Shown one piece after another: positions 7,166 to 10,662 of a stretch of 29,860 nt of DNA (within the stretch, counting starts at the first letter, position 1; every line of letters begins with the position of its first letter). The notes under the pieces were generated by a model. That model searched no databases and was not told the origin of the DNA. It worked only from the letters and a program-made list of their open reading frames with translations. Origin of the DNA: a virus; IMG/VR virus record IMGVR_UViG_3300048028_000119, positions 1 through 29,860 of that record. One strand, 5' to 3'. Made by a program: the position numbers and the translations under genes.

Positions 7166-7369
7166 TTAAGCCTCGGCGAGGCTGGCTCCGTCTGCGATGG
7201 CCGCAGACAGCTCCCGTCCTGTCATTAAAACTCGACGATCATCGTCGGTAGACCACGTGTATAACCACGTCTCCTCTCCGTCGGATTCTCTGATGCCGAT
7301 GACCTCGCAGTCCGTGAGAGTAAACTTCCCATGACCGCCCGTTAGTGTAGTGCCTGTTTCGTATTTCAT
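7166..7369 (-). CDS. Hypothetical beta-rich protein, 67 aa
   Basis: It begins with a Gly/Thr-rich segment (ETGTTLTGGHGKFTLTDCEV), followed by a strand containing WLYTWSTDDDRRVL; it could be a small SH3-like barrel. No family is recognised. Upstream lies a 129-base regulatory gap with CCTTAAGGA palindromes and a TATAAC -10-like element, so this gene is likely the first of a transcription unit. Its last codons form a hairpin (AGCCTC with GAGGCT, 7168-7182). Confidence 0.68.
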   Translation of the reverse strand: MKYETGTTLTGGHGKFTLTDCEVIGIRESDGEETWLYTWSTDDDRRVLMTGRELSAAIADGASLAEA

Positions 7370-8026: not shown

Positions 8027-8278
8027 TTATGGGTTGCAGTGCACCATATATTGAGCGGTGCGCTTGAGTTTGTCGAGTATATCTTGAGGGTCAACGCCTT
8101 CAGCAATCTGCAGGGCGTAGAGTATCTTGGAGTCCGAAGGGCGGCTACCCAGCTCCCGACCGAAGCCATAGCGACCGTCGGTAAAGCTGTGCCTCCCGTA
8201 TGTTATGTCGGTCAGCACCATCGGTTTGTTGTCCACGATGTATGCCTGTCCGACCTGTAGGTTTGATTCAGTTTTCAT
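8027..8278 (-). CDS. Hypothetical protein, 83 aa
   Basis: The N-terminal half looks beta-rich (NLQVGQAYIVDNKPMVLTDI) and contains a Gly/Arg/aromatic loop (RHSFTDGRYGFGRELGSR). The C-terminal part is helical (DPQDILDKLKRTAQYMV). No family is recognised. The leader before its ATG is made of CTAAC repeats (CTAACACTAACTAACT). Confidence 0.66.
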   Translation of the reverse strand: MKTESNLQVGQAYIVDNKPMVLTDITYGRHSFTDGRYGFGRELGSRPSDSKILYALQIAEGVDPQDILDKLKRTAQYMVHCNP

Positions 8279-8290
8279 AGTTAGTTAGTG

Positions 8291-8473
8291 TTAGTTATTT
8301 ATGTAGTGAGTTTCTAAGTCTCTTGCATATGCTCGCAATGCATCCACCTTCCATTCCATCTTTGATAATTCTTTGGTGGTGTATGCGCCTTCGGCTCCGC
8401 CTTCGACTATAGATTCTTCTATGCCGTCGGCTTCAAAGCGTATGTCGTCTATTCTTTTTTCTAGGTCTGTCAT
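8291..8473 (-). CDS. Hypothetical helical protein, 60 aa
   Basis: It is fully helical and strongly acidic at the start (MTDLEKRIDDIRFEADGIEE), with a Gly-rich break and a second helix (KMEWKVDALRAYARDLETHY). It could be a small helical hairpin; no family is recognised. The ATG sits six bases after ACCAATA, in the usual Shine-Dalgarno position, and the CACCTAACCAA word is repeated in tandem further upstream. Confidence 0.62.
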   Translation of the reverse strand: MTDLEKRIDDIRFEADGIEESIVEGGAEGAYTTKELSKMEWKVDALRAYARDLETHYINN

Positions 8474-8511
8474 AGTTTGTATTGGTTAGGTGTTGGTTAG
8501 GTGTTAGTTAG

Positions 8512-8931
8512 TTATTTATAGAAGATATGCCGACCGATCTTGCAAGTCTTTTGCAATGAGCTAGCCCAGTATGGGTTGCAGTAGTCAGCGTGATAGTGAT
8601 CAGCCCCGTCCGTGTAATTGGTAGGCGCTGAGTGCACGATTGCTAGTGCCTCGCTGTATCGAGGGTGCCGCTTGGCCTTGGCTAGTAGCTGGTCGATCTG
8701 GCCGCTGTTCCAACAGCTGAACTGCTTGCGCTGTAGGCACACCTGCTTGGGCGTGAGCCTGCGTTTGACAGCTCGGTTGAGTATGACCTCGTGCACCGCC
8801 TGCATCGAGCCGTAGGCGTACTCTCCGCCTGCTTCTAGGATGAGGGTAGCCGCTACGATTTCAGACGCATTGCCAGATAGGTTTGAAACTAGGCCAAGTG
8901 CAAGGGCGAATATTAGTTGTTTCGTTTTCAT
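8512..8931 (-). CDS. SleB-type cell wall hydrolase (endolysin) with signal peptide, 139 aa
   Basis: The protein degrades peptidoglycan to release progeny. A basic-hydrophobic leader (residues 1-22, cleavage likely near GNA-SE) would send it through the Sec system. The mature part carries the Hydrolase_2/SleB pattern: the likely catalytic Glu33 in LILEAGGE, AVHEVILNRA (45-54), FSCW, then GADHYHADYCNPYW (109-122) and IGRHIFY. Several Cys residues may form disulfides outside the cytoplasm. It is encoded in the leftward arm, away from the late membrane proteins at 22308-23024. The ATG follows ACCAATA by seven bases. It lies next to a possible 26-aa membrane peptide. Confidence 0.87.
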   Translation of the reverse strand: MKTKQLIFALALGLVSNLSGNASEIVAATLILEAGGEYAYGSMQAVHEVILNRAVKRRLTPKQVCLQRKQFSCWNSGQIDQLLAKAKRHPRYSEALAIVHSAPTNYTDGADHYHADYCNPYWASSLQKTCKIGRHIFYK

Positions 8932-9056
8932 GTTTGTTTATTGGTTTGTATGGTTTAAGCGTCAAAGATTTGCTTGCCGCTTGGATTAAATAGGCAAGCC
9001 CACGCAACGCACGAGTCAAATTCTGATTCGTGGTAAACTTCAAAGGCAGAATTTAC

Positions 9057-9137
9057 TTACCGATCGGGACTATAATTAAGATTAACGAGTATAATTCCAA
9101 TTAAAATACCGAACGGTAATAAATAACTTGCGTTCAT
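9057..9137 (-). CDS. Possible 26-aa single-membrane-span peptide
   Basis: The frame begins MNASYLLPFGILIGIILVNL and ends NYSPDR: one hydrophobic span of about 15-18 residues, then a short polar tail. It lies upstream of the endolysin in the same operon and its leader has ACCAATA, although 15 bases from the ATG rather than the usual 4-7. A small membrane peptide beside an endolysin could assist lysis. The same frame continues after its stop for 33 coding-like residues (see findings). Tentative because of its size. The rest of the gap to 8931 contains only that stretch. Confidence 0.42.
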   Translation of the reverse strand: MNASYLLPFGILIGIILVNLNYSPDR

Positions 9138-9170
9138 GTCTGATTATCTGTTTATTGGTTTGTGTTAGTC

Positions 9171-9222
9171 AGAGGCAGTATGCCTCTACCCGAAAAGCCC
9201 ACTAGCGAATAGCTAGCAGGCT
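9171..9222 (-). other. Two-hairpin intergenic module, copy 1 (terminator-like)
   Basis: On the minus strand a long stem made of 9212-9222 and 9196-9206 (AGCCTGCTAGC with GCTAGTGGGCT, two U-G wobbles, 5-base loop) is followed by TTTTCGGGT. A second hairpin, AGAGGC/GCCTCT with loop ATACT (9171-9187), comes next. The first stem with its U-run resembles an intrinsic terminator after the 72-aa gene; the second lies in the leader of the next frame. Confidence 0.65.
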
Positions 9223-9229
9223 GTGCTTC

Positions 9230-9448
9230 CTACATTCCGTAGGCTTCGGCGTGGTCGACGCTGTCCCAGTCGATAGTCCCGTCTGGCTCGATGAGTCCCT
9301 CCTGTACGAGGTGCTCGGCCTGGCGCCCGTAGCTACCTTGAAGGTGATTGATCGTGCCCGTCTTCACGAGATTTGAGAATAGCTCGATGATTTCGACGAA
9401 GTCTAGCTCGCCGTTTTCGTAGTCGATGATGCTGTCAATGTTTGGCAT
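9230..9448 (-). CDS. Hypothetical small phage protein, 72 aa
   Basis: The pattern ENGELDFVEIIELFSNLVKTG followed by LQGSYGRQAEHLVQEGLI is a recurrent small phage protein of unknown function, found in early regions of many phages. It is acidic and helical. The ATG lies six bases after ACCAATA. A two-hairpin module lies on each side, so the gene may be an independently processed message. Confidence 0.75.
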   Translation of the reverse strand: MPNIDSIIDYENGELDFVEIIELFSNLVKTGTINHLQGSYGRQAEHLVQEGLIEPDGTIDWDSVDHAEAYGM

Positions 9449-9473
9449 AGTTTGTATTGGTTGTATGTTAAGG

Positions 9474-9525
9474 AGAAGCAGTATGCTTCTACCCAGAAAG
9501 CCCCCTAGCGAATGGCTAGGAGGCT
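9474..9525 (-). other. Two-hairpin intergenic module, copy 2 (terminator-like)
   Basis: On the minus strand AGCCTCCTAGC (9525-9515) pairs with GCTAGGGGGCT (9509-9499) over 11 positions, with one U-G wobble and a 5-base loop, followed by TTTCTGGGT. Then comes AGAAGC/GCTTCT with loop ATACT (9474-9490). The plus strand would have a mismatch at the wobble, so the leftward RNA is the structured one. Confidence 0.68.
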
Positions 9526-9531
9526 GATGGA

Positions 9532-9726
9532 TTAACTCTTGGCGAGTCTCAATGCACTGCTGTGAACTACGCTTGCTACACCCTTGGGGTCAGCGGCGAT
9601 GCTTTGTTGGTTTGCCCAACTGATCATCGAACTGGCCAGACTGTAGAAGTCTGCTTGCGCCATTGGCTTGTCTTGGTTTAATAGGCAAGAGTTCTTGTGC
9701 TGTATGTATGCTTGTTGAATGTTCAT
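9532..9726 (-). CDS. Hypothetical protein, 64 aa
   Basis: It begins MNIQQAYIQHKNSCLLNQDK, then has a helical Ser/Ala-rich half (FYSLASSMISWANQQS). No family is recognised. The ATG is six bases after ACCAATA, within the conserved CTAACA-CAAACCAATA leader, and a two-hairpin module flanks it on both sides. It is read as one of a series of small single-gene messages. Confidence 0.62.
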   Translation of the reverse strand: MNIQQAYIQHKNSCLLNQDKPMAQADFYSLASSMISWANQQSIAADPKGVASVVHSSALRLAKS

Positions 9727-9753
9727 TATATTTATTGGTTTGTGTGTTAGTTA

Positions 9754-9803
9754 TAAGCGGAATGCTTACACCCAAAAAGCCCGCACCTTGTGGGGTGCGA
9801 GCT
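9754..9803 (-). other. Two-hairpin intergenic module, copy 3 (intrinsic terminator)
   Basis: On the minus strand AGCTCGCACC (9803-9794) pairs with GGTGCGGGCT (9787-9778), with one U-G wobble and a 6-base loop, followed directly by TTTTTGGGTG: a good factor-independent terminator 11 bases after the 77-aa gene. A second 5-bp hairpin TAAGC/GCTTA (9754-9768) follows. Sequence differs from copies 1 and 2 while the pairing is kept. Confidence 0.72.
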
Positions 9804-9813
9804 GTGTGGATTG

Positions 9814-10047
9814 TTAGTATAATATGTTTCCTTGGCAGTCGTATCGGGCAAGTTGCTCGGCTTCATCCCAGTCATCTTGGACTTCCTGCGGGACAGCTTC
9901 GAACCGAAGCTCGACTGCTTCACATTTAGGATTTCCGTTTACATCCCATCGTTCGCCATTGGCGAGCGTGACCTCGTGACCATATTGGGTCGAGTGCCAC
10001 TCTTGGATGTCTAATACTTCACCTGTTTCTGCGTTGTGATATGTCAT
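9814..10047 (-). CDS. Hypothetical protein, first gene of the leftward arm, 77 aa
   Basis: The frame opens at 10080, but the internal ATG at 10047 (MTYHNAETGEVLDIQEWHST) is preferred because the upstream codons contain GCCAATA, a variant of the operon's leader word. The protein has a beta-rich start and an acidic helical end (VPQEVQDDWDEAEQLARYD), with Cys residues in NPKCEAVE and YDCQG. No family is recognised. It is nearest to the divergent control region, so it is probably the first expressed leftward gene. Confidence 0.68.
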   Translation of the reverse strand: MTYHNAETGEVLDIQEWHSTQYGHEVTLANGERWDVNGNPKCEAVELRFEAVPQEVQDDWDEAEQLARYDCQGNILY

Positions 10048-10080
10048 AATTTTAATGCGTTGATTATTGGCACTCCCCAT

Positions 10081-10360
10081 CTATGCGGGCTTGTGACCGC
10101 CGCAGTATGCGGCTGGGTTACCAATCTATGTCCTACTACTACGTCATCGAGGGTGCTAGCACCCGCACTTCCACTTCCAGAAGTGCCATCCAAGGTATCG
10201 CCATATCGAAGGCCGAGTCGCCGTCACATATCCGCAAGTCCAAAGCTCAAGGCAGTGGGTCTTCTGAACGGTAGAGGTGCCAGCGGTCGACATCCGAGGT
10301 CGGAGTCGGTAGCGTTTTGGACTGTCAAAGAACGGGTGTTACGCATCAATTATAGCGAAT
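10081..10360. other. Non-coding leader region rich in inverted repeats
   Basis: No convincing gene is seen. Structures include GCCGC/GCGGC around loop AGTAT (10099-10113), a perfect 14-bp palindrome GGGTGCTAGCACCC (10151-10164), and GCACTTC/GAAGTGC with an 8-base loop (10165-10186) immediately after it. The segment is GC-rich compared with the AT-rich stretch that follows. It could be the structured 5' leader of the leftward transcript or a small RNA. Overlapping plus-strand frames here look spurious. Confidence 0.45.
10349..10356 (-). promoter_or_regulatory. Candidate promoter of the leftward arm (-10 element)
   Basis: On the minus strand GCTATAAT provides a perfect -10 hexamer (10349-10354). 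The same GCTATAAT word precedes two rightward genes (16561-16568 and 19730-19737). No good -35 box is visible at the expected distance, so it may rely on upstream protein sites or an extended -10 contact. Transcription would start about 300 bases before the first leftward gene, through the structured leader. Confidence 0.45.
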
Positions 10361-10455
10361 AATATGTGAATAGATATCACTATTTCTGAAACCGTGTATC
10401 CAAAATAATGAAACCATTACTACTTTCACGGCCGTAAACCCCTTATATAGTTACG

Positions 10456-10511
10456 TAAGTCGTTGATAAGAGTTTCATAAGTCGTTGATAGACTTTCGTA
10501 AGTCGTTGATA
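10456..10511. repeat. Three 13-bp iterons, TAAGTCGTTGATA, 21-22 bp apart
   Basis: Perfect copies lie at 10456-10468, 10478-10490 and 10499-10511. The 22- and 21-base spacing is two helical turns, so a protein would meet all three on one face of the DNA. An AT-rich stretch precedes them (10340-10420). This resembles a replication-initiator or repressor binding array. Between 10512 and 10662 no gene or clear repeat is seen. Confidence 0.75.
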
Positions 10512-10662
10512 ATGCTCCAAAAATGCAAAAATGAAATCGACAGCAGGGCACCTAGGAAGCCCTACAAGGCGTCCGATTTTCGACTGGCACCCTACCCCTC
10601 GCAGGCCGTCAGAAGGCCATACAGGCAAATTCGACCATTCCGAGATTCAGCCGCAGCAGGGC

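Follow-up and report, generated by a model that had tools for sequence, protein, structure and literature searches.

Results

The window analyzed here, taken at its full length, is a virus record of 29,860 bases (IMG/VR IMGVR_UViG_3300048028_000119). Replication genes and small genes lie at 1 to 10 kb and are read leftward, and packaging, capsid, and tail genes lie at 11 to 29 kb and are read rightward. A repeated two-hairpin module had been proposed in three gaps between small leftward genes by a first-pass annotation made from the letters alone, and this was borne out: each of the three gaps carries a complete module on the minus strand, which is also the strand of the genes (Table 1). Read along that strand, every copy consists of a GC stem of 10 to 11 bp, a U-run, GGGT, a short hairpin, an A/C-rich leader, and the ATG of the next gene. 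Folding of the minus-strand RNA of the three modules gave z scores of −4.0 to −4.3 relative to shuffled sequence, and a covariance model built from 85 relatives retrieved exactly these three copies from the window, with scores of 77, 67, and 57 bits and the next best match at 13.9 bits.

The leaders of the three modules are A/C-rich and have no Shine-Dalgarno sequence, which is also absent from most early genes on the minus strand of the window. The CTAACA..AACCAATA leader described by the first-pass annotation is present at all three copies, but the motif is a separate element that also stands before genes without a module. Both CTAACA and AAACCAATA precede early ATGs with or without a module on the minus strand of the window (genes 8278 to 9726 and others). 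Downstream of copy 1, there is a 26-amino-acid open reading frame (ORF), MNASYLLPFGILIGIILVNLNYSPDR (window 8957 to 9137, minus strand), and beyond its TAA an open stretch of 33 codons follows in the same frame.

Table 1. Features of the leftward operon in the window, in the order of transcription, and tmRNA-like elements in related records
Feature	Position	Strand	Remark
Promoter −10 box TATAAT (10349-10354) and boxA-like GTTCTTTGACA (10323-10333)	10323-10354	−	Putative 5' end of the leftward transcript, placed by position from relatives
RAGATH-24 structured RNA	10128-10328	−	Head of the leftward transcript; 46.9 bits on the long span; gathering score, 45.3
Twister-P1 ribozyme	10067-10124	−	Equivalent slot ahead of gene 1; 54.2 bits, E 9e-11, model positions 1-68 of 68; below the Rfam gathering score of 67.2
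First small gene of the operon	9814-10047	−	77 aa
Terminator stem-loop, copy 3	9778-9803	−	End of gene 9814-10047
GGGT (9770-9773) and short hairpin (about 9753-9769; GTAAGC-ATTCC-GCTTAT), copy 3	9753-9773	−	5' element of gene 9532-9726
Leader AACTAACACACAAACCAATAAATATA	9727-9752	−	No Shine-Dalgarno sequence; before the ATG at 9726
Second small gene	9532-9726	−	64 aa; no family match
Terminator stem-loop, copy 2	9499-9525	−	End of gene 9532-9726
GGGT (9491-9494) and short hairpin (9474-9490; AGAAGC-ATACT-GCTTCT), copy 2	9474-9494	−	5' element of gene 9230-9448
Leader of gene 9230-9448	9449-9473	−	ATG at 9448
Third small gene	9230-9448	−	72 aa; DUF7417, phrog_3908
Terminator stem-loop, copy 1	9196-9222	−	End of gene 9230-9448
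GGGT (9188-9191) and short hairpin (9171-9187; AGAGGC-ATACT-GCCTCT), copy 1	9171-9191	−	5' element of the 26-aa ORF starting at 9137
tmRNA-like elements	L130 11453-11519; L006 5446-5512; L013 10052-10119	−; −; +	Plus 7 further records

The module forms a family in related uncultured phages

A search with a pattern of 19 fixed bases returned 24 IMG/VR stretches, 23 of which have the same spacing and anatomy (the single exception lies in unrelated sequence), and a second pattern search returned 90 stretches. The fetched relatives contain 234 occurrences of the core GGCTTTNNGGGT, whose invariance is partly a matter of construction, since the related contigs were retrieved by a search that required it; the core variants TTTCTAGGT, TTTTTTGGT, TTTTTGAGT, and TTTTGTGGT occur as well. 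A stem of at least 7 bp precedes 227 of the 234 cores, so that a GC-rich stem-loop is directly followed by a U-run, as in an intrinsic terminator. The U-run reads TTTYT with a length of 3 to 5, and the U-tract of the module is weaker than that of other terminators at the same loci (4.6 versus 6.4 T in the first 8 nucleotides [nt]). We count 227 distinct module copies in related uncultured phage contigs, where module sequence counts are not independent events. Where open frames flank the module on either side (225 copies), the distance from the stop codon to the core is mostly 30 to 35 nt and that from GGGT to the ATG is mostly 41 to 45 nt (about 42 nt). Perfect hairpins directly after GGGTR were found 141 times with the terminator core versus 8 times without it, and at least one of these eight still shows a module-like leader and an ATG.

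The TerL proteins of the module-bearing contigs are 50 to 100% identical to that of the window, and the phages that carry the module are probably mostly marine, judging from relatives. Outside this group, no match to any family in Rfam 15 was obtained at the gathering score, and no module was found in isolate phages: a megablast search with the region and a blastn search with one module against 50,697 phage records gave nothing useful, and the module is absent from isolate phage C75C1, a capsid relative (68%). When 84,980 bacterial and archaeal genomes were scanned for the pattern, only two matches came up, both of which lie inside genes and were judged to be due to chance. In records L031, L041, L044, L046, and L047, the last module bears a different long element after GGGT (AGCAGGGCTATCCTAGCACTCGCAACC...GCCGTACAGCGGC...) and before the ATG.

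Both helices covary, and the long stem shows a strand bias

Covariation in a wider alignment had been set as a check on the first-pass annotation, and both helices were found to covary strongly. In an alignment of 85 copies, which were chosen partly for a paired hairpin 2, 95.9% of the cells were paired (67.7 ± 1.1 after shuffling) and 236 double changes were counted (81 ± 6 after shuffling); when the partner columns were slid by 1 to 3 positions, pairing fell to 34 to 48%. More weight is carried by an unselected and structure-blind test, a mutual-information scan of 202 distinct segments, in which the hairpin-2 pairs 4-14 and 6-12 ranked first.

The 92 distinct long stems contain 758 Watson-Crick pairs, 137 G-U pairs, and 4 other pairs, a G-U ratio that is somewhat flattered by a stem search admitting G-U but not A-C, and at the third pair C-G and U-G alternate at 49:43. 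Such G-U pairs in the sense strand argue for selection on the sense RNA. The earlier claim that pairing is complete only in the leftward RNA thus holds for the long stem (137 G-U pairs versus 4 nonpairs) but not for the short hairpin, where departures to G-U in the sense strand are roughly as frequent as those to A-C, so that no sense-strand bias is seen. The ATACT loop, noted at first pass as kept in two copies, is not conserved among the relatives, in which the loop is mostly A followed by four free bases and in some copies is well over 10 nt long. With loop sequence and length both free, the stem and its position appear to matter more than the loop sequence. ATACT had also been a candidate for a loop recognized by a protein, which we rejected because the loop sequence is not conserved.

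Ribozymes and tmRNA-like elements stand in the place of the module

At the head of the leftward operon of the window, RAGATH-24 is followed 3 nt on by the twister-P1 ribozyme and then by gene 1. Among 48 module-bearing records, RAGATH-24 is present in 27 and twister-P1 in 26, nearly always adjacent to each other; a literature search on RAGATH-24 found nothing. Two records (L013 and G015) lack the twister and have a terminator-hairpin module in the interval from RAGATH-24 to gene 1 instead. The G015 record retains GGTAAC of the 5' edge of the twister. The first genes of G015 and G004 are homologous, and in G004 a twister-like sequence before gene 1 was recognized by eye and with a loose pattern, not by covariance search. 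In a second phage group, the operon head carries a different structured RNA, and the module lies before gene 1.

Two further elements occur at such positions. Record L010 has a type II hammerhead (Hammerhead_II; 7255 to 7318, plus strand) between two small early genes. Cleavage there would give the message downstream a 5'-terminal hairpin. A tmRNA-like element of 66 to 68 nt was found in 10 records and, in L130, sits directly after GGGTgaac. It matches only the tRNA-like domain of tmRNA, has no space for a tag reading frame, and was not called by ARAGORN; the acceptor stems of the three copies read each contain a G3-U70 pair. Ribozymes set RNA ends by cutting, and tmRNA-like elements are RNase P substrates in bacteria. 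A variant, TTTTTTGGTAGACAAGGCTACG...GTAGCATTCAAACGAGACTGC, was seen in L006, L011, L022, L120, L123, L125, and other records, in several of which it lies directly upstream of the tmRNA-like element.

Promoters and RNA polymerases

At the operon head, boxes of the TTGACA/CATACT type lie at a fixed offset from GTTCTTTnnCAGT. This sequence is kept in relatives at a fixed place after the promoter and before two different structured RNAs, and it resembles boxA when judged by eye against a remembered consensus. Within the modules, sigma70-like promoters were not detected above the level of shuffled sequence. A search for T7-type RNA polymerase (PF00940) gave no match in 18 records, and the control genomes gave no match either; the giant proteins sampled had no RNA polymerase match in Pfam or the PDB. 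Single giant ORFs of 2,000 to 2,800 amino acids lie in the virion region of L105 (C75C1), G001, G003, G005, G006, G012, and G016; two ORFs of this size were scanned and showed no RNA polymerase match, and one of them has DUF7178. Beside the leftward promoter, the window contains three direct repeats of GTAAGTCGTTGATA with a spacing of 21 to 22 bp (10445 to 10512), which are also present in G001 and might be operator sites or origin iterons.

The module is shared between unrelated genes

In 43 pairs of copies, the two modules are near-identical although the genes on either side are unrelated, and the module therefore looks like a cassette boundary, a junction where cassettes join. Nearly the same terminator is kept in 50% of the pairs that share the upstream gene, versus 3% for unrelated genes; the terminator thus looks as if it tends to travel with the gene that precedes it.

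Discussion

We lean toward reading the module as a message separator and cassette boundary within an early operon, in which a leaky terminator and a protective 5' hairpin would split one transcript. A single sigma70-type promoter at the operon head would give rise to a long leftward RNA. The first hairpin with its short U-run would act as a leaky intrinsic terminator, so that the upstream message receives a protected 3' end. The 5' end of the next message could come from polymerase that reads through, perhaps aided by the RNA at the operon head, or from a cut in the single-stranded UUUYUGGGU linker, and the second hairpin would close this 5' end about 42 nt before an ATG without a Shine-Dalgarno sequence. 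We infer from the sequence that termination is partial, where exactly the 5' end lies, that a nuclease or read-through produces it, and that the messages are protected.

What the module does can be read from what replaces it at the same slot. A natural swap between a ribozyme and the terminator-hairpin at one and the same place suggests that either one has the job of setting an RNA apart from the message that follows. Replacement by twister-P1, a hammerhead, and a tmRNA-like element accordingly backs the separator reading together with the conserved geometry, the covariation of both helices, the constant sense orientation, and the reuse between unrelated genes. Two points weigh against it: the ribozymes cut themselves, whereas for the hairpin version cutting is presumed, and the non-Watson-Crick pairs of the short hairpin are not biased toward the sense strand. 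The first-pass suggestion that the module ends one message and begins the next is well supported by covariation, orientation with the gene strand, constant spacing, and slot sharing with ribozymes and tmRNA-like elements, but its proposal of a protein-binding site is weakened by the free sequence and length of the loop.

The module could alternatively be a terminator joined to a promoter, as in PeaT cassettes, with a phage-modified or otherwise unrecognized alternative promoter in GGCTTTYTGGGT, transcription from GGG onward, and a primary transcript whose 5' end is the hairpin. That GGCTTTYTGGGTR is the only strongly conserved primary sequence of the module fits such a promoter, and a start on GGGU followed by a hairpin would be a classical protected 5' end. 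Yet the box is invariably joined to the terminator and hardly ever occurs by itself, it has the variants TTTCTAGGT, TTTTTTGGT, and TTTTGTGGT, its place can be taken by ribozymes, and neither sigma70-like promoters above shuffled sequence nor, in the 18 records, a T7-type RNA polymerase were found (a search that was equally blank in the control genomes), and we regard this explanation as unlikely. Rather improbable in our view is an array of terminators under processive antitermination, where the boxA-like GTTCTTT and RAGATH-24 or another structured RNA at the head would load Nus-type factors or act like the put RNA of HK022, and the modules would be conditional stops. The fixed place of GTTCTTTnnCAGT after the promoter and before two different structured RNAs speaks for it, as does the precedent of rrn operons, at whose start, after the promoter, boxA with NusB/S10 drives antitermination (PMC10250234). 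The resemblance to boxA rests on a remembered consensus, however, and antitermination would account for read-through but not for the second hairpin; it is compatible with the separator reading rather than exclusive of it.

We consider it very unlikely that the module is purely a recombination target, conserved only as shared sequence for the swapping of cassettes. Near-identical modules between unrelated genes would be expected of such a target, but the covariation disfavors it, as the arms change together while the sequence drifts, which exchange driven by homology does not need. Hardly any credence is due to a DNA-hairpin promoter for an N4-like virion RNA polymerase, in which the short inverted repeat would be extruded in the template strand: loops reading A..C do allow a seventh G-T pair and a 3-nt loop in that strand, but the loops differ in sequence and in length (some well over 10 nt) where a fixed short stem with a 3-nt loop is called for, the giant-protein sample gave no match to an RNA polymerase family, and the adjoining long stem, with its G-U pairs in the sense strand, is an RNA terminator.

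The separator reading can be extended to a more general scheme, to which we give slightly less than even chances. Interchangeable separators (terminator-hairpin, twister, hammerhead, and tmRNA-like) would serve as mobile boundaries of early genes, and an RNA at the operon head (boxA-like sequence and RAGATH-24) would let the polymerase pass, so that one transcript becomes separate messages with protected ends. What is surprising is that ribozymes and a tmRNA-like element change places with the module. This exchange suggests a biological role for the twister ribozymes of phages and for RAGATH-24, whose functions are largely unexplained, and shows a way in which early genes may be exchanged without loss of expression control. 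In addition, the RNA family serves as a marker of gene boundaries across a large group of uncultured phages and aids the finding of very small genes.

Bacterial messages can carry stabilizing stem-loops at the 5' terminus, as in ompA, with the stem beside a short unpaired 5' end. The module resembles these in the stem next to a short unpaired 5' end and differs in that its hairpin is repeated, mobile, and fused to the terminator of the previous gene. Twister-P1, hammerhead II, and tmRNA of Rfam share its slot in sister phages, and the module itself has no match to them. The closest known concept is the PeaT cassette, reportedly a mobile regulatory element of T4-type phages (Arbiol et al., 2010, cited in PMC4177764). 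The resemblance is that small early genes are shuffled as cassettes and that a terminator stem-loop marks where they meet. The same element lies between unrelated genes, as found here for 43 pairs of copies. For the early promoter beside the stem-loop of a PeaT cassette, no sigma70-like counterpart above shuffled sequence was found in the modules, where a second, covarying hairpin appears to take its place. Start-associated sequences and inverted repeats of unknown role are found upstream of starts in actinobacteriophages (clusters K, EF, O, and EG); like the module, they recur within one phage, each time at a set distance from the start of a small gene. Their sequence is conserved, and their position is at or close to the ribosome-binding site (PMC7302621). 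The stem sequence of the module, in contrast, is free and covaries, and a terminator precedes it.
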